Of a stretch of 21,854 nucleotides of DNA, positions 4,998 through 20,265 are shown one piece after another. Within the stretch, counting starts at the first letter, position 1; every line of letters begins with the position of its first letter. The position numbers were made by a program, and so were the translations under genes. Origin of the DNA: a virus. Location: positions 1-21,854 of the IMG/VR virus record IMGVR_UViG_3300027752_001680, one strand, 5' to 3'. The notes under the pieces were generated by a model that was given only the letters and a program-made list of their open reading frames with translations, was not told the origin of the DNA and did not search any database.

Positions 4998-5281
4998 TTG
5001 TCAGCCAATTCACCTTCAGCTGGCATATGGACATCAACACTCTGTTCATGAGCAGCAGAATCCTGCTGTTGTTGAGGACCATTTTGTCTTAGATATGTTT
5101 CTACTTTATTTCGTAACATACCAACACCAGCAAGTTCTTGTCCTTGGAACCCGCCTCTTTGCGAACATACATCAATAATCTGTAATAGAGTACTGAGGTC
5201 ACCGAGAGTGATACTCACCGGTTGTTCATTTTGTTGGCCATTTTGGTTTTGGCCGAAGTTACCATTCACTGGTTCGTTCAT
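4985..5281 (-). CDS. 98-aa Gln/Asn-rich protein between clamp and clamp loader
   Basis: I do not recognise a named family. The start is MNEPVNGNFGQ at 5281: AAAGGTGA lies 5 nt upstream and the ATG is one nt after the gp45 stop. The frame is open further into gp45 (to 5338), but that extension is a shadow of the gp45 end. The centre (about residues 22-66) looks like a compact helical domain with a regular pattern (SITLGDLSTLLQIIDVCSQ, GQELAGVGMLRNKVETYL). Both ends are low complexity, rich in Gln/Asn and then acidic. Its fixed position between gp45 and gp44 suggests a link to the replisome or late transcription; that is inference. Confidence 0.75.
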   Translation of the reverse strand: MNEPVNGNFGQNQNGQQNEQPVSITLGDLSTLLQIIDVCSQRGGFQGQELAGVGMLRNKVETYLRQNGPQQQQDSAAHEQSVDVHMPAEGELADKVIS

Positions 5282-5282
5282 A

Positions 5283-5948
5283 TTATTCACCTTTATTATA
5301 AGTCGACTTTGAATCAATCGCCACATAGTATGTGACACCTTTTCCTTTGAATTCAGATATGCCTTTTGAGCATATTGTTACCTGATAGTCCAAAGGTAGT
5401 AGTTTAAGATTATCGGTTTTAATGATAACATTAAACTTATCGGCAGTTTCCCCAATTTCAACGCCAAAGTCATCTGCGTTGTCATTAGCACTGTCGATTG
5501 CTTTGAGATAACATTTGCCGCCTTCGCCTACAAAAGCTACCTCAGAGAATTGTAATACACCTGCCGCCTTAAGTACGGAAGATAAATCCCCCTCAGAAAC
5601 ATTGACAGTCACATCAGCTGAAGGAAGTGTTATTTCCTTTTCTGGTGGTGTATGAATCATGGAAATGTCGGCGTAGACATATCGTGTGCGTCTTTTGCCT
5701 TCAGAGATTATAAAGTATTTATCCCCAAAGTCAATGTCCGGATCGTTGTATAAAGACAAGATTGACAAGAATCTTGAAAGGTCGTAAACACAAGCCTGTG
5801 ATGGCATTGTATCTGGAACTTCTGCGATTGCAATCAGTGTCTTTTCTGGCGTAATAGTTTTAATTGTATTACCTGCGTTCAATAGAATACTCTTATTGAT
5901 TGCTGTAAAGGATTTTAAAACGTTCAGCGTTTCATTAGAAAATTTCAT
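5283..5948 (-). CDS. 45: DNA polymerase sliding clamp gp45
   Basis: Trimeric ring that tethers gp43 to DNA and, in T4, also activates late transcription through gp33 and gp55. The 221-aa length matches T4 gp45 (228 aa). The N-terminus MKFSNETLNVLKSFTAINKSILL and the alternating strand pattern through RYVYADISMI, YLKAIDSANDNADDFGVEIG and the C-terminal SEFKGKGVTYYVAIDSKS are typical of the two-domain T4-type clamp. A GGAG site precedes ATG 5948. It has its own perfect early promoter (5988-6016) nested in the end of the upstream glycosyltransferase gene and leads the gp45, 98-aa, gp44, 57-aa, gp62 operon. Confidence 0.93.
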   Translation of the reverse strand: MKFSNETLNVLKSFTAINKSILLNAGNTIKTITPEKTLIAIAEVPDTMPSQACVYDLSRFLSILSLYNDPDIDFGDKYFIISEGKRRTRYVYADISMIHTPPEKEITLPSADVTVNVSEGDLSSVLKAAGVLQFSEVAFVGEGGKCYLKAIDSANDNADDFGVEIGETADKFNVIIKTDNLKLLPLDYQVTICSKGISEFKGKGVTYYVAIDSKSTYNKGE

Positions 5949-8737: not shown

Positions 8738-9588
8738 CCATTATCTATCAACTTATTTATATAAGTTTTCAGATTGTGTTTTGGAGACCAGCCTAGGTCC
8801 CGTGTTTTTTCTGTGATGACACTAGCAGACATACGATTGCCTTTTCTAGGTGGTAGTTGTTCGGTACGAGTGTTAAACATCTTAGCTACATCCGCCACAG
8901 TGTATTTTTCTGGATGGCCAATACCATATTCATCACCCTGTCCCTTGTCACCTATCAGTACTAGAGCGTCTACAATATCATCTATATAAGTGAAATTTCT
9001 TTCCTGGGTACCAGGCATTACAATTGGTAGAGCCTTGCCGTCAGATTTTAATTTTGCATATTTTGCAATAAGTGTCGCGTATGGCCCATCTTTTATTTCT
9101 CTGGGTCCATATACATTATAAAAGTATGTAATTGCATAATCAATACCAAACCACTCACCATATTGTTTTACCAATTCAGTATTACGAGCTTTGGACCAAG
9201 CATAAGGACTCATTACATAACCATCATCCGTGTCAGCAAATTTAGTACTGGAGCCTGAATAAACAAGTTTTGCACCCCATGCACGGACACATTCCAATAC
9301 TCTTGTTGTGCCTTCGCAATTAAATTTATGAACCAATTCAATATCGTCAAATGATTGTTCGACACGAGAATATTCACCTAAATGATAAACTCTATCAATA
9401 CCAGAGAATCTCTCCGGCGTTAGATTTGTAGTACAATCCTCAACATATGCAACTCTTTCCACATGATTTTCTACTGAGCCAGTAAAATAATTATCATATG
9501 AAATTACATCATGGCCTTCGGATACAAGTCTTTCAGCAAGATGACTTCCTACAAAACCTGCACCACCTGTTATTAGAATTTTAGCCAT
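8734..9588 (-). CDS. NAD-dependent sugar-nucleotide epimerase/dehydratase
   Basis: Extended short-chain dehydrogenase of the UDP-glucose 4-epimerase-like group; would convert one nucleotide sugar to another. From ATG 9588 the 284-aa protein starts MAKILITGGAGFVGSHLAE (Rossmann TGGAGFVG), has D-N-Y-F-T-G (adenine-ribose side), LVYSGSSTKFAD and the catalytic YAWSK (YxxxK), then YNVYGPRE and RNFTYIDDIVDAL, both typical of the family. The reading frame runs on to 9651, but that part overlaps the TAGT-type gene; at 9588 the overlap is 8 nt and a GGGAG lies 11 nt upstream. It is short at the C-terminus compared with GalE (~338 aa). The substrate cannot be told from sequence alone. Confidence 0.87.
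   Translation of the reverse strand: MAKILITGGAGFVGSHLAERLVSEGHDVISYDNYFTGSVENHVERVAYVEDCTTNLTPERFSGIDRVYHLGEYSRVEQSFDDIELVHKFNCEGTTRVLECVRAWGAKLVYSGSSTKFADTDDGYVMSPYAWSKARNTELVKQYGEWFGIDYAITYFYNVYGPREIKDGPYATLIAKYAKLKSDGKALPIVMPGTQERNFTYIDDIVDALVLIGDKGQGDEYGIGHPEKYTVADVAKMFNTRTEQLPPRKGNRMSASVITEKTRDLGWSPKHNLKTYINKLIDNG
8754..8761 (-). promoter_or_regulatory. Possible late promoter (TATAAATA) upstream of dexA
   Basis: The minus strand reads TATAAATA exactly, 72 nt before the dexA start and in the right direction. It lies inside the epimerase coding region (encoding Tyr-Ile-Asn/Lys), so in an AT-rich genome it may be coincidental. Confidence 0.3.
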
Positions 9589-10816
9589 GGATGGATGTTC
9601 TCCCTTCTGGAAATTCATCTGCCTCGAACTGTGGGTCTGGATATTGTTCATCCGTATTCCAGTTGCGCATTAGTTGCATTCCATAATTATCTACTTTATT
9701 TACAATTGGCATATCTTTTTTCAAAATAAGAGGATTCTGTCTAGCAGGATATCCATCTTTAGTCATAATCGCATTAAGATCTACATGGTGATGTACTCTG
9801 CCATATCTCTCAACTAGTGTCACACAATCAGGGTGCATTTCTTTTAACATTTTTGATTTGTTATATGCTGGATCATTTTCACCTTCACCAGAATAATCCT
9901 CATATACCTCAGTTGTGTTTCCACCTTTTACTGTTCCAGTTCTTAATTTGCCTTGAACAAATGCATACATTAATACTGTACACAAACCTTCTTTAAGGAC
10001 ACGAATACTTAGATCTACATCCTCGTTAAACTTGCCTCTCCATTTATGTGGGCAATTATTATCAATTAGGATACACGACATCATTCTTGTATTTAGTATG
10101 AATGGCTGATATGGGCATGGGTCAACAACAAAGAATTTATATTGGAAAGATGCTAGTGCAACATTTTCATATCTGTCAACAAAATCCTCAGTAGCCCTAA
10201 AAATACCAGAGCCATTCTCTACACGATATCTTTTGTTTTTGTGTAATCTTACGAACCCATCAATGTTATCGTCCATTAACCAATGTCTAGCATGACCATT
10301 GGCTTGGGAGTGTTCCCAACACCAGTTCCTGGCAGGGCCTGAGCCTTTGCCGTGGTTACTGAATGGTAATTCCAATACGGTTCCTAAATCGCCTGCGGCA
10401 CTTGTAGCTTTGACATAAACATCATATTCTTGTGGTTCAACCGCGATGTAATATGGTATGCCCATTTTCTCCAATGTCTTTGCAGTATGTCTTGTATCTG
10501 CTCTACCTTTACTAATAATATAGATAGGATATTTTGGATTAAAATGGTCTGTGTCAGTTTCGACATACCTGTTTGTCATATTTTCTTCTCTGCCTCTAGC
10601 AGGATAATAGACAACGTTTGTTTTCTTTGTTAGATTATATTCCATTTTATCACTGAAATGATTCCTATCTTCTTCTGATTTGAATTTAACAGCGATTTGT
10701 TTAAATACATCTTTTTTCTTTGCTTGAAAGGTTGGCATACCAGCTGCGTACCATTGCACGTACTGATTACGCCATTCCTTTTGAAGTTGTTCTTGAGTTT
10801 TTACTGGTGTATACAT
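9581..10816 (-). CDS. TET-associated-type glycosyltransferase (TAGT) with N-terminal module
   Basis: The 411-aa protein matches my recollection of the TAGT family, GT-A-fold glycosyltransferases that occur with phage TET/JBP dioxygenases and are predicted to glycosylate hydroxymethylated pyrimidines in DNA. Landmarks in order: YPIYIISKGRAD (about 96-107), YIAVEPQEYDVY, LPFSNHGKGSGPARNWCWEH (150-169), HWLMDDNIDGF (DDN at 182-184), DFVDRYENVALASF, WRGKFNEDVDLSIR (NEDxD, 264-268), KGGNTTEVY and YGRVHHHVD. Residues 38-79 form a separate module that also occurs in the 107-aa protein upstream. Its ATG shares a base with that gene's stop (TAATG), and its 3' end overlaps the epimerase. No TET oxygenase or hydroxymethylase is in this window, so DNA as acceptor is inferred from the family. 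Confidence 0.8.
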   Translation of the reverse strand: MYTPVKTQEQLQKEWRNQYVQWYAAGMPTFQAKKKDVFKQIAVKFKSEEDRNHFSDKMEYNLTKKTNVVYYPARGREENMTNRYVETDTDHFNPKYPIYIISKGRADTRHTAKTLEKMGIPYYIAVEPQEYDVYVKATSAAGDLGTVLELPFSNHGKGSGPARNWCWEHSQANGHARHWLMDDNIDGFVRLHKNKRYRVENGSGIFRATEDFVDRYENVALASFQYKFFVVDPCPYQPFILNTRMMSCILIDNNCPHKWRGKFNEDVDLSIRVLKEGLCTVLMYAFVQGKLRTGTVKGGNTTEVYEDYSGEGENDPAYNKSKMLKEMHPDCVTLVERYGRVHHHVDLNAIMTKDGYPARQNPLILKKDMPIVNKVDNYGMQLMRNWNTDEQYPDPQFEADEFPEGRTSIHG

Positions 10817-12496: not shown

Positions 12497-12525
12497 ATTA
12501 TAACACGTTTATTTGTATTTGTCAA
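12497..12525 (-). promoter_or_regulatory. Early sigma70-type promoter of the Sm-like/glutaredoxin unit
   Basis: Minus strand: TTGACA (12525-12520), 17-bp spacer, TATAAT (12502-12497) with extended -10 TGT. The TGA inside the -35 is the stop codon of the sulfotransferase-like gene. Confidence 0.85.
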
Positions 12526-13262
12526 CTACTTTTTAAAGTTTTTTCGACATTAAATCCCGGTGGGATCTTTGGTTCAATTTCCCAGGTAACTTCTCTATTA
12601 TATGCAGGATAGTGTGACTCGTTAAAGTAATCTTCCATACAAATAAGCTCACCTGGATGCTTTTTCATTGTCTCGGCCATATTTTCATAATTTTTTATGA
12701 GACCTTCAGTAAGTGGACCGGACCTTAAATGGTAGTTTTTCTCCCAATCGTTCTGTATATCAACATGGTGTTTTACTTTTTCACCAATGCCGTGTTTCGC
12801 CAAATGTAGTTGTTTCATTTTCTCAACACCTACAGCATTCTTATATGATACAAACCCAGTTCCACCAAAATCTCCTATCTGTCTTACAGCAATCCAACTC
12901 TTTACTTGAGCTAGGAAATCCCTGCGATAGAGATAATAGATTTTATCTACTTTATTTAGTATTCGGTCCATGGCTTCATCGGACGAGACTTGGTTGGGCA
13001 TTACCTTAAAGACACAAGCATGGCCAGCCTCTAGCTGTTGGAGGAAAAATTCCTCACTCTGTAACCATTCTTTTTCTTCTGTTGGTAAGTCTTTATAATT
13101 TAACTGAATTTGGTATTTTGCTTTGGCACGACCTAGTGGTTCGGGCTTATTATGTGCAAACAATTCAGCTTTATATGGGAGCTTATATTGTTCTGATTTC
13201 AGGAGAGTAAAAGATGTGCTGCCAGTCCTAAAATTTGTTATAATAGCTACTTGGTTAATCAT
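12522..13262 (-). CDS. Sulfotransferase-like protein coupled to gp43
   Basis: Resembles PAPS-dependent sulfotransferases, which move a sulfuryl group to a hydroxyl or amine acceptor such as a carbohydrate. The 246-aa protein starts MINQVAIITNFRTGSTSF, where FRTGST (11-16) fits the 5'-phosphosulfate-binding loop. YYLYRRDFLAQVKSW (Arg113/Arg114 to Ser122) fits the 3'-phosphate-binding motif (R and S nine residues apart), and ELICMEDYFNE resembles the conserved E-D-L/Y region. Its ATG shares one base with the stop codon of the DNA polymerase gene (TAATG), so it is translated with gp43. The substrate is not visible from sequence. Divergent P-loop proteins with other functions remain possible. Confidence 0.72.
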   Translation of the reverse strand: MINQVAIITNFRTGSTSFTLLKSEQYKLPYKAELFAHNKPEPLGRAKAKYQIQLNYKDLPTEEKEWLQSEEFFLQQLEAGHACVFKVMPNQVSSDEAMDRILNKVDKIYYLYRRDFLAQVKSWIAVRQIGDFGGTGFVSYKNAVGVEKMKQLHLAKHGIGEKVKHHVDIQNDWEKNYHLRSGPLTEGLIKNYENMAETMKKHPGELICMEDYFNESHYPAYNREVTWEIEPKIPPGFNVEKTLKSS

Positions 13263-15805
13263 TATGTAAAGAAATCCTCAATCGTATCTATCCTTTCTGA
13301 CGACCAACCTAAGGAATCAAGTATGCCTTGGATCGGGGTAAGAAAAACCTTGTTGAATTGTGTATCGTAGTCAATATATTTAGTAAGTTCCATTTCCTTC
13401 GGCAATACGCCTGGGAAACTGATAACATTTTGTTGTATCGGATTAGGCACTTTCATATAGACGAGCTTGACCTTATCACCAGATTGTATTGATGGATATC
13501 TTTTGGCCAATTTGTTCTGAGCCAAATGATGATTATAAACAATAGAACCTCGGACGTGTATCGGGCAACCTTTTCTGAATAATGTTACGGGATGTTTGTA
13601 TTTCTCAATGTCGTCAGTTCCAGATGTTTTAGCAATAGCCTCTACTGGTAATGATTTAAATTCGTCCTTAAACTCTTTAATATAGATCTGTACATCGGAT
13701 TCGGTGCCATTCATGATTACATTAAACACGGACCTCATTTTTTCTCTGCAGACTTCTGGTGTTGATGAACGAACACTTTCCAAACCAGTCACACTGATTT
13801 TTGGCTTTTCATAATGAACACCTTCTGAGTTAAGCACATTGAGAATATATCTCTTTTTAGCCACAAAGATTGCTCTGTCGGTAATCTTTTCACGTTTCAT
13901 CACCATCGCATTGCGATATGCACCCATCTGTCGTTGAAGTTCCAAATAGCCTTTTTCAATCACTTGTTCGATTTTGGTAGAACAAATTTTATCCAGGAAC
14001 TCTTCGCCTTGTTTTCTGTCAATCTCTTTTGTCCCAAACACTTCTTGAATGAGGTCACCAAAGTTAACATAAATTGAGTCTGTGTCAATGTATATAATAT
14101 AGTCTTTATCTTTTGTGCCTAGGACCTTATTCATATAATTGTTAACAGATTTCTGAGCATATCGGATTGCCAATTGACCAGATGTAGTAATAGCCTCTGC
14201 CATTTCTGAAATATAATAGAGGAAATATTTGTTTGCCGTTGCGCCGTATAGACTGTTCATGGCAATTTTAATAGACATCTGAGAGTTGTGTAATTGGTTG
14301 ACCTCTCGTTTGAGCCTTTTGACTTCTCTTACATCAGTCTCAATCTCAAGCTGTTGTTCAACTGCAATCATTTGCTTTTTAATTACAGAACGATTATTGT
14401 AGTATTCGTCAATAATTTCTGGAATGATACCAACATTTTTATTAGTAAAGCATACGCCATTGGCAGCAACTGAAACTGATGGATCATCATTTACATAATC
14501 ATCTGTCAGAACCATATCCTGAGTAACATATTCACGTCTGTCGTCAATCCAGGTTTCTGGTGACATATTAAATTGTAACATCAGATGCGGATATAGGGAG
14601 TTCAAGTCAAAAGAAACTACCCAAGGATGCATGCCTTGTTCTGGATCTTTAACATAACCACCAACCAGCGCACCAAGGTTAGCACCAGGGCCACCTTTAA
14701 TAGGAGGAACAATTTTGTCTGCAATCAGTCTACGATATATTGTAGATTCCCAAATGCCTACAGTTCCGAATGCGTCTTTATAATCAACACCGCCACCATA
14801 AGCAACAGTCATTACCAATTGTAATAAACTTGTTTCGTCCTCGAGTTCCTCAATCAGCTGAGTGTCACGAAGGTTATAATCTAGATAGAGTTGTGGATTT
14901 TGTTCATAGAGTTCGGTCAAGCCACCATAATCAGAATAGTCTAATTTCTTTTTGCCAAGAACTGAATAGCCAATATGGTCGAGTTTATATGATTCTTGTG
15001 GACCATATTTGTAACCAAACTTTTTGAACGCGTCCATGTAATCGACAATGGTCATACCAGAGATACGATACGTTGATTGGACCTTATTAAAGATTTCTGA
15101 TGAGCGTTGTTTGATATGTTTCCAAGGTGATAATTGTTTTGCAACATCTTCACCAAGTAGCCGAATGATACGAGTCACGATATATTGAATGTCAAAGTAT
15201 TCGACGTTCCAACCAGTTACGATATCCGGATAATCCGAGGACCACAATTTTACAAAATATCTAAGCAGAGCCTCTTCAGTTTCAAATTTGATAAAATCAA
15301 TATTGTCTTGGTCGATACCAGTAGCTGTTTGTGTTTTATCATAATCCTTACGACCAAGCAATGTATATTTTGCACTACGTGAGCTGTGATAAGCAATTGA
15401 TGTAATCTCTTTATCAGCCTGATTAATATCTGCATATCCGTCACTGATATCAACCTCAATATCAAACGAGGCAATGTTGATCTGATTAATGTCAAATTCA
15501 ATCTTGCCTGGATATTTTTCTTGTATGAACTGAGTAGTATAATTGGTATTGCCGAAGATTCTCATGTTTGGAATACCTTTGTACTCTTCGATGAAATCCT
15601 TAGCCTCTCGCATGTCTCCAAATTTATGAGGAGAGAGTTTATATTGGCCAGTTAAGGACGTATAACCTTCTGCTCCAGATTTTGGTGTGTGTACATATAA
15701 TGTAGGTCTGAATGGAACTTTGTAAGAAAAGCGCTTGCCATTTTCATAGCCGCGCCATAAGATATTGTTGCCGTATCTTTCAACGGAAGTATAGAACGAT
15801 GTCAT
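13262..15805 (-). CDS. 43: Family B DNA polymerase gp43
   Basis: Replicative polymerase with 3'-5' proofreading. The 847-aa protein (T4 gp43 is 898) has ExoI SFDIEVD (D115, E117), ExoII TGWNVEYFD (198-205), ExoIII YNLRD (310-314), polymerase motif A DLNSLYPHL (400-408), motif B KIAMNSLYG (513-521) and motif C YIDTDSIY (572-579). The C-terminus DTIEDFFT is a hydrophobic-acidic tail suitable for binding the gp45 clamp. No intein or intron split is seen. It has its own early promoter (15832-15860). The leader contains a five-codon ORF whose TGA overlaps the gp43 ATG (ATGA), and no strong Shine-Dalgarno is visible, so translation may be coupled or weak. ATG 15805 fits the family start. Confidence 0.97.
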   Translation of the reverse strand: MTSFYTSVERYGNNILWRGYENGKRFSYKVPFRPTLYVHTPKSGAEGYTSLTGQYKLSPHKFGDMREAKDFIEEYKGIPNMRIFGNTNYTTQFIQEKYPGKIEFDINQINIASFDIEVDISDGYADINQADKEITSIAYHSSRSAKYTLLGRKDYDKTQTATGIDQDNIDFIKFETEEALLRYFVKLWSSDYPDIVTGWNVEYFDIQYIVTRIIRLLGEDVAKQLSPWKHIKQRSSEIFNKVQSTYRISGMTIVDYMDAFKKFGYKYGPQESYKLDHIGYSVLGKKKLDYSDYGGLTELYEQNPQLYLDYNLRDTQLIEELEDETSLLQLVMTVAYGGGVDYKDAFGTVGIWESTIYRRLIADKIVPPIKGGPGANLGALVGGYVKDPEQGMHPWVVSFDLNSLYPHLMLQFNMSPETWIDDRREYVTQDMVLTDDYVNDDPSVSVAANGVCFTNKNVGIIPEIIDEYYNNRSVIKKQMIAVEQQLEIETDVREVKRLKREVNQLHNSQMSIKIAMNSLYGATANKYFLYYISEMAEAITTSGQLAIRYAQKSVNNYMNKVLGTKDKDYIIYIDTDSIYVNFGDLIQEVFGTKEIDRKQGEEFLDKICSTKIEQVIEKGYLELQRQMGAYRNAMVMKREKITDRAIFVAKKRYILNVLNSEGVHYEKPKISVTGLESVRSSTPEVCREKMRSVFNVIMNGTESDVQIYIKEFKDEFKSLPVEAIAKTSGTDDIEKYKHPVTLFRKGCPIHVRGSIVYNHHLAQNKLAKRYPSIQSGDKVKLVYMKVPNPIQQNVISFPGVLPKEMELTKYIDYDTQFNKVFLTPIQGILDSLGWSSERIDTIEDFFT

Positions 15806-15831: not shown

Positions 15832-15860
15832 ATTATAACATACCTGGAGCGATATGTCAA
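15832..15860 (-). promoter_or_regulatory. Early sigma70-type promoter of gp43
   Basis: Minus strand: TTGACA (15860-15855), 17-bp spacer, TATAAT (15837-15832) with extended -10 TGT. The TGA in the -35 is the gp46 stop codon. The predicted leader to ATG 15805 is about 20 nt. Confidence 0.85.
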
Positions 15861-18631: not shown

Positions 18632-19216
18632 TTACTCCTGGATATTGTCTGCAGCTGCTACCTCTGTCTGCAGTTGCTTGGCCTCAGCGGCACTCATAGA
18701 TTTTAAATAGTTCATTACACCAGCGCGTTGTTTTACTATTTTGGATTTTTTCTTGTCGGCTCTTTCCCATTTTAAACGAGACACTTTGTCTTTATATACA
18801 ACACCGTGTAAATGGTCATATTCATGCAGGAAACATCTTGCGCCATATCCGGCTATTAGACCATCCTGCTTTTCTAATTTTTCATTGTACCAAATTGCTT
18901 TGATATCTTTAGGTCGGGATATTTTCACAAACATATCTGGGAAACTCAAACAGCCTTCAACATCAAGAACCATCTCATCTGACACATCAACAATCTCTGG
19001 GTTAATCACCATTACTGCAGCATCTGTTTTTTCTCCCATAACAAATAGTTTATAGTCTAAACCTACTTGAGGTGCTGATAGTCCAAGACCATTATTTGCG
19101 AGCATCAGCTTTACCATTTGCTCTTTAAGTTCGATGGGATCGAAACCTGGGTCTTCCAAATTCACATCAGATACTTCCTTTGAAAGGATAGGATCTGGAT
19201 AATATACTAAGTTCAT
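18632..19216 (-). CDS. def: Peptide deformylase
   Basis: Removes the N-formyl group from new proteins; phage copies are known in marine T4-like phages, where they are thought to help process host or phage proteins during infection. The 194-aa protein has all three motifs: GLGLSAPQVG (43-52), EGCLSFP (87-93) and HEYDH (131-135), the metal-binding HExxH-type site. The start overlaps the nucleotidyltransferase stop by 4 nt (ATGA). Compared with short cyanophage versions it carries an extra C-terminal tail of about 50 residues, Lys-rich then Ala/Glu-rich, whose role is unknown. Confidence 0.95.
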   Translation of the reverse strand: MNLVYYPDPILSKEVSDVNLEDPGFDPIELKEQMVKLMLANNGLGLSAPQVGLDYKLFVMGEKTDAAVMVINPEIVDVSDEMVLDVEGCLSFPDMFVKISRPKDIKAIWYNEKLEKQDGLIAGYGARCFLHEYDHLHGVVYKDKVSRLKWERADKKKSKIVKQRAGVMNYLKSMSAAEAKQLQTEVAAADNIQE

Positions 19217-19638
19217 AATTTACCTTCTTCTCTCATTTGTGCTCTAATTTTTGTTGCAGATATCTCGTGAATATCTTTACCAAGATCATGTTCTGTAAAT
19301 GTGTAACCTACTCCACGACCAAAGCTAATGTCAACAATATTTGGTACTTCCAAAATTAGATATTCACGTCCATTTTCATAACCATGTTCTCTTAATCCAT
19401 TTTCAATACCTTCAATGGTTTGTATCATACCAAACGGGTTATCATCCTGTACAACCGTTCGGCCTGCTCCTGCATCACCATCAAAATTATATACGTCACG
19501 TACCATTATAACAACTTGCCCGGTCAATGTCAAACACTTTTTAAAAAGATTTGTATGTCCATCATGCCAAGGCTGCCATCTGCCCAACATTTGCACAGTG
19601 GGCTTTTTATAATCAAATGCTTCATCCATTCCAAACAT
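19213..19638 (-). CDS. HxGH-type nucleotidyltransferase (NadM/cytidylyltransferase-like)
   Basis: Adenylyl- or cytidylyl-transferase of the HxGH superfamily. The 141-aa protein has the first nucleotide-binding motif LGRWQPWHDGHTNLF (HDGH, 25-28) and the second motif ISATKIR (126-132), equivalent to the ISSTxxR of nucleotidylyltransferases. The segment between them (VPNIVDISFGRGVGYTF) is family-like. Archaeal NMN adenylyltransferases are the closest pattern I know, giving an NAD-salvage role; cytidylyl transfer onto an alcohol phosphate is an alternative. It lies in one operon with an APS-kinase-like gene, but the motif does not look like that of ATP sulfurylase. GGAG precedes ATG 19638. Confidence 0.8.
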   Translation of the reverse strand: MFGMDEAFDYKKPTVQMLGRWQPWHDGHTNLFKKCLTLTGQVVIMVRDVYNFDGDAGAGRTVVQDDNPFGMIQTIEGIENGLREHGYENGREYLILEVPNIVDISFGRGVGYTFTEHDLGKDIHEISATKIRAQMREEGKL

Positions 19639-19639
19639 T

Positions 19640-19852
19640 TTATTTTACTCCATATTTTATAAACTTATACCATAGTCTTTCATGTCCATAATACAGTCCA
19701 AATTTTATCACCAAATCAGCTAGAAATACTGCACCAATTGCTTTAGGAGGCAATCCAAAGAACCAGGCAATACAAACTGTAGTTATGCTTGCGACAATAC
19801 GCCACGTGACTGCTTTAGCCAAATGTCTCTTTGCGCTTACTTCTTCAGCCAT
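19640..19852 (-). CDS. DUF2061 small membrane protein
   Basis: The 70-aa product has a basic N-terminus (SAKRHLAKAVTWRIVAS), the typical opening of DUF2061, then two predicted membrane helices (about 15-33 and 37-55) and a C-terminal YYGHERLWYKFIKYG, also characteristic. Function is unknown; in some bacteria DUF2061 genes sit inside sulfate-assimilation operons beside cysC and cysD/cysN, by my recollection. Here the start lies 16 nt inside the 3' end of an APS-kinase-like gene, which repeats that association. The product is expected in the inner membrane. Confidence 0.85.
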   Translation of the reverse strand: MAEEVSAKRHLAKAVTWRIVASITTVCIAWFFGLPPKAIGAVFLADLVIKFGLYYGHERLWYKFIKYGVK

Positions 19853-20265
19853 TTCTGATATGCCATATTAATTACTGGTTCTAATTCCAGATGTGTGTTC
19901 GCGTACCATTCGGTGACATGGTAATCACAGTGCCGAGGTTTTTGAAAGATCTTATTTGTATCTTCGAATCTACCTTCTTGAATAGTATCCATCCAAATAG
20001 TATAATCTGGGTCAAAAGCATTTCTTGTTTCTGCGAAAGGACATACAAAGTCTGTAACTGCAATTTTACCAGCCATGGATACACCATCTGATAAGAGTCT
20101 CATTCTCATTGCTTGTCTCATTCTGCCTTCATTACTGAAGTCCCAGTCATCATATTCTTTTCTAACAGCATCAGCATTTATCCAAACACCTTCAACAGCC
20201 TCTGCCAAAGGTTCTGCTAAAGTACTCTTCCCTGAGCCGGGAAGGCCAAAAATCAATATTTTCAT
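19837..20265 (-). CDS. P-loop kinase, APS-kinase-like (CysC-like)
   Basis: Predicted small-molecule kinase; the best pattern match is adenylylsulfate (APS) kinase, which makes PAPS. The 142-aa protein has Walker A GLPGSGKST (7-15), WINADAVRKEYDDWDFS (matching the D-x-D-x-x-R and following region of CysC), a QAMRMRLLSDG helix and DFVCPFAETR (72-81), which aligns with the F-I-S-P-F-R-x-x-R motif of APS kinases. EDTNKIFQKP follows. At 142 aa it is shorter than bacterial CysC (~200). It overlaps the gp55 stop by 4 nt and the DUF2061 gene by 16 nt. A different nucleoside or sugar kinase is possible, so the substrate is uncertain. Confidence 0.72.
   Translation of the reverse strand: MKILIFGLPGSGKSTLAEPLAEAVEGVWINADAVRKEYDDWDFSNEGRMRQAMRMRLLSDGVSMAGKIAVTDFVCPFAETRNAFDPDYTIWMDTIQEGRFEDTNKIFQKPRHCDYHVTEWYANTHLELEPVINMAYQKWLKK

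Follow-up and report, generated by a model that had tools for sequence, protein, structure and literature searches.

The gene that directly follows the gp43 DNA polymerase in a T4-like phage very likely encodes a PAPS-dependent sulfotransferase (hereafter ST) with an Stf0-like core, which is carried as an accessory cassette predicted to be co-expressed with an early gene and for which a sugar hydroxyl is the likeliest acceptor. The gene lies on the minus strand of a 21,854-base virus record, analyzed at its full length and termed the window, and comprises an ATG-initiated ORF of 246 residues (12522..13262), as defined by the ORF call, sequence alignment, an AlphaFold2 model and profile comparison. 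The preliminary description had proposed a sulfotransferase, an identity that is upheld by the fold, the profile and the conserved residues, from which we infer the transfer step. On the basis of sequence and model, the assignment to a PAPS-dependent, Stf0-like enzyme outside PF09037 is well supported.

The AlphaFold2 model of ST, calculated from a 33-sequence alignment, is confident, with a pLDDT of 94.6 and a pTM of 0.91; the single-sequence fold (pLDDT 33) was useless. At the N-terminus, a β-strand (residues 4-8) runs into the loop NFRTGST, followed by a helix (residues 15-25), so that a PAPS loop with the expected basic residue (Lys or Arg) sits directly after strand 1. A further strand (residues 107-112) leads through R113 into a helix (residues 116-129) that bears the invariant S122, as expected of a 3'-phosphate site. 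Structural similarity search against the PDB using Foldseek ranked the trehalose sulfotransferase Stf0 (PF09037, PDB 1TEX) first, with an E-value of 4.2e-4 and a probability of 0.99, making it the best solved fold for ST, although its lead over the P-loop kinases next in rank is narrow and the TM-scores, at 0.34-0.45, are low.

The two PAPS-binding landmarks named in the preliminary description, NFRTGST at residues 10-16 and YLYRRDFLAQVKS at residues 110-122, are both exact. The former (13215..13235, minus strand) is the putative loop for the 5'-phosphosulfate, in which R12, S15 and T16 are invariant throughout the family and R12 takes the position of the Arg in the Stf0 loop. The latter (12897..12935, minus strand) forms the strand-turn-helix predicted to bind the 3'-phosphate, with R113 and S122 invariant. 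Between them lie ELF (residues 33-35; 13158..13166, minus strand), whose invariant E33 is the likely catalytic base and aligns with EFF of Stf0 (GEPQEFF), and KVMPNQ (residues 86-91; 12990..13007, minus strand), which aligns with KLMWNQ of Stf0. Further downstream, PGELICMEDYF (residues 203-213; 12624..12656, minus strand) adopts a strand followed by a helix in the model, and presumably stands where many sulfotransferases have their YEDL-type motif. Across 33 homologues down to 27% identity, the residues N10, R12, S15, T16, E33, P89, Y110-R113 and S122 are invariant, which argues that these motifs did not arise by chance. According to a review, the PAPS loop of Stf0 carries an Arg, and enzymes of this kind use a His or a Glu as catalytic base (PMC11625862); the ST family has both R12 and E33, the latter being invariant and aligned with the Glu of Stf0. 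By alignment with Stf0, the first loop would hold the 5'-phosphosulfate through R12, S15 and T16, R113 and S122 would hold the 3'-phosphate of PAPS, and E33 would take the proton off the acceptor hydroxyl.

Profile comparison with hhalign of the 33-row ST family against a diverse Stf0 alignment gave a P-value of 4.4e-4 and a score of 34.4 over 126 columns, with the register RTGST/RSGST, E33/E36, KVMPNQ/KLMWNQ and RRDFLAQVKSW/RPDVVSQAVSFW. The diverse Stf0 alignment was needed here, as a lone Stf0 sequence yielded no information in such a comparison. After trimming of gappy columns, the score was 26.4, against a maximum of 23.0 in 200 column shuffles and, far lower still, 12.6 for the reversed-alignment control; 37 other families of these phages scored at most 22.4 against Stf0. 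In ST and Stf0, the Arg-type PAPS loop, the catalytic Glu, the K-x-M-x-N-Q motif and the 3'-phosphate site R-x-D-x(3)-Q-x(2)-S thus follow one another in the same order and at the same spacing. However, the hhalign similarity is limited to the PAPS-binding half; the identity in the structural alignment is ~11%, and the C-terminal half is unrelated in sequence, as probably is the acceptor site. Since the PF09037 HMM gives no match to ST, which lies below its detection, we call the protein Stf0-like rather than filing it in that family. Proteins of the Sulfotransfer_3 family have been reported in marine phages, such as the OM43-phage contigs similar to cyanophage S-SRM01 (PMC10580990). Like ST, they are phage-borne accessory sulfotransferases with an unassigned acceptor; in contrast to them, ST has no HMM match to Sulfotransfer_3 (PF13469), with an hhalign P-value of 0.15.

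Two other readings of the fold have to be weighed. The shikimate and adenylate kinases that make up most of the Foldseek ranks 2-20 would fit a P-loop nucleoside or sugar kinase. However, the Walker A motif GxxxxGK[ST] is absent from all 33 aligned members, the invariant R12/S15/T16, E33 and R113/S122 fit the sulfotransferase pattern instead, and hhalign gives a P-value of 0.37 when the family is compared with the APS kinases that these phages encode, which together make a kinase highly improbable. A degenerate sulfotransferase fold that binds or sequesters nucleotide (PAP or PAPS) and performs no transfer could account for a C-terminal half unlike that of Stf0, and for the two short relatives (L151 and L153) that lack much of the middle region; yet the putative catalytic E33 is kept without exception, in these short relatives too, and we regard this reading as very unlikely too.

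ST represents an Stf0-like family that is uncatalogued in current HMM libraries: no model in Pfam, NCBIfam or PHROGs matches it, and a sequence search of the PDB with the window ST found nothing. Relatives occur at ~80 loci in IMG/VR, all from uncultivated marine viruses. Among 50,697 isolated-phage records in INPHARED, neither the window ST nor three distant relatives found a match, and two peptide patterns scanned against bacterial and archaeal genomes confirmed no relative there. Two distant relatives of ~190 residues (L151 1049-1618 and L153 6983-7579) lack the middle insert, and their contigs differ in gene content. The gene is under purifying selection, with a dN/dS of ~0.08 against the relative L002 and 0.15 against L006.

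Upstream of ST, gp43 (13262..15805, minus strand) shares at most 44% identity with isolated phages among the matches listed. The last A of its TAA stop codon is the first base of the ST start codon (TAATG), the junction reading ...TTTACATAATGATTAAC; the shared base of the preliminary description is therefore confirmed as a -1 start/stop overlap. The word "fused" in its title is wrong, as gp43 and ST are two proteins with overlapping start and stop codons. From this overlap, coupled translation is predicted. A perfect sigma70-type promoter (12/12, TTGACA-17-TATAAT, with a TG before the -10 element; 15832..15860, read 15860>15832 on the minus strand) lies 26 nt before gp43 and is the presumed promoter of gp43-ST, and a second perfect one, whose -35 element overlaps the ST stop codon, serves the phrog_527 gene (12497..12525, read 12525>12497 on the minus strand). 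Because these perfect promoters bound the pair and none that scores 11/12 or better separates gp43 from ST in the window, we consider the two genes as one unit. In this arrangement, ST would be transcribed from the strong promoter 5' of gp43 and translated as an overlapping second cistron, and the claim that it is made together with gp43 holds at the level of gene layout, from which expression is predicted. In total, eight perfect TTGACA-17-TATAAT promoters stand on the minus strand of the window, just before genes at apparent operon heads (20873>20845, 15860>15832, 12525>12497, 11819>11791, 8737>8709, 7161>7133, 6016>5988 and 2905>2877). In relatives, the -35 element of the next promoter often contains the stop codon of gp43 or ST (GGTTGACA).

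Among the 80 best gp43 loci, 19 have ST directly 3' of gp43, and in the gp43-adjacent copies it is spaced -4, -1 or 0 nt from the gp43 stop codon. The proposed survey of gp43-adjacent genes thus found the overlap conserved among these copies, whereas other relatives place ST behind other genes. It follows phrog_527 in L064, L065 and L141, and dCMP deaminase, beside a T4-type dCMP hydroxymethylase, in L100 and L107; in L102-L137 it follows a small basic ORF between DUF6433 and a HAD-like gene, and in L138 it occupies yet another place. The DUF6433 context had been taken from gene sizes for the late gp2-gp4-gp53 cluster, which we rejected, as Pfam identifies RNase H and DUF6433. Wherever an upstream ORF could be called, ST starts -11 to +3 nt from its stop codon, or +16 nt in L138, and no promoter of at least 11/12 was found in the 150 nt upstream of ST at any locus tested. 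Among 20 virus records, 12 have one copy and none has two. In a quick tree, five changes of context are needed. Moreover, between the window (12522-13262) and the close relative L006 (3820-4560), the synonymous divergence of ST is 1.2, ~4-fold the value of 0.33 for the adjacent gp43; this gap suggests exchange between lineages, likely by recombination. L006 also has a small cytochrome-c-like ORF (5123-5572; CxxCH, 149 residues) between grx and a g11177 homologue.

The varied contexts, the tight spacing and the lack of a strong promoter of its own indicate that ST habitually rides behind another gene, and we propose that it is an accessory cassette, which different phage lineages carry behind different genes. 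gp43 is one carrier among several. Since homologues show the same coupling to upstream genes that are unrelated, adjacency to gp43 does not name the acceptor, and the earlier idea that this coupling points to DNA or a replisome-linked acceptor is unsupported.

As for the donor, the window encodes an APS-kinase-like P-loop kinase (19837..20265, minus strand), a possible source of PAPS, which matches PF01583 with 34.6 bits against a cut-off of 21.1 and has the APS kinase 2yvu as its best PDB relative (E-value 1e-9). The gene invoked in the preliminary description is therefore real; as a dedicated partner of ST it is weakened by co-occurrence in both directions, for a 156-kb record has ST and no kinase and others have the kinase and no ST, although several of the records are fragments in which absence is weak evidence. 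As the kinase does not track with ST, host PAPS is the simplest source of the donor; phage-made PAPS is possible. In the window, an NMNAT-like nucleotidyltransferase (19213-19638) and the kinase are separate genes with a small gene between them, and in L017 (8943-9725) and L065 (4514-5296) the two form one 260-residue fusion. Such fusions, also seen in phrog_10255, recall the bifunctional PAPS synthetases composed of APS kinase and ATP sulfurylase, which the phage kinase resembles in its APS-kinase part. However, the nucleotidyltransferase half is nearer to NMN adenylyltransferase, weakly its closest relative among solved structures, and ATP sulfurylase is absent from its solved-structure matches.

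By analogy with Stf0, a sugar hydroxyl is the most probable acceptor and our best guess in view of the Stf0-like core and of the glycosyltransferases that lie near ST in the gp43, dCMP deaminase and DUF6433 contexts. Such a sugar could be part of a glycan of the host envelope, of a small glycoside or of glycosylated phage DNA. That ST sulfates a glycan or lipid of the host envelope in infected cells, so as to block superinfection for instance, is a serious possibility, if short of probable: Stf0 itself acts on a sugar (PMC11625862), glycosyltransferases neighbor ST in the DUF6433 context, and ST is an accessory, single-copy gene that has moved several times, as a host-interaction cassette would.

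Alternatively, ST might sulfate the sugar on glycosylated hydroxymethyl-pyrimidine DNA and so shield the genome from host nucleases, which we consider unlikely. The sugar enzymes of the window cited in the preliminary description are real, namely a TAGT-family glycosyltransferase (9581..10816, minus strand) that could make a DNA-linked sugar, a UDP-glucose dehydrogenase and a nucleotide-sugar epimerase, and all three would suit such a pathway. So would the transcription unit shared with gp43, and the position of ST in the dCMP deaminase context between gp42, the T4-type dCMP hydroxymethylase, plus dCMP deaminase and a glycosyltransferase/C5-methylase cassette. However, the presence of TAGT does not follow that of ST: two TAGT matches stand in a 170-kb relative that lacks ST, ST records of 156, 108 and 101 kb have no TAGT, and most ST records lack it. 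A TAGT-ST linkage is thus rejected by co-occurrence in 20 virus records, several of them fragments and with TAGT as the only glycosyltransferase surveyed. In addition, many gp43 loci with gp42 showed no ST, proximity is weak evidence in a T4-like early region full of DNA genes, and a Tet/JBP search gave no match, as its control also failed to do.

A T4-type gp42 that keeps the N-D of NDYAW is encoded at L107 2273-2947 and in many relatives; in L107 and relatives it lies beside dCMP deaminase and near a C5-methylase-like gene, a neighborhood suggestive of hydroxymethylcytosine in the DNA of this clade. The 170-kb TAGT relative (G201) gave no match to a dCMP hydroxymethylase. Given gp42 in relatives and TAGT in the window, sulfation of a DNA-linked sugar is possible; DNA sulfation by virtue of the gp43 coupling is not supported. 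The more specific proposal, that some marine T4-like phages sulfate sugar-bearing hydroxymethylcytosine in their DNA as a new class of anti-restriction modification, appears improbable, and a literature search on sulfotransferases and phage DNA hypermodification found no paper.

Were DNA the acceptor of ST after all, the resulting DNA modification would be of a new kind. ST stands for a widespread marine viral enzyme family, seen here only in uncultivated viruses, that current HMM libraries have missed. Its genetic setting indicates that a start/stop overlap with the DNA polymerase gene can be a generic route of expression for an accessory gene rather than a clue to its function.
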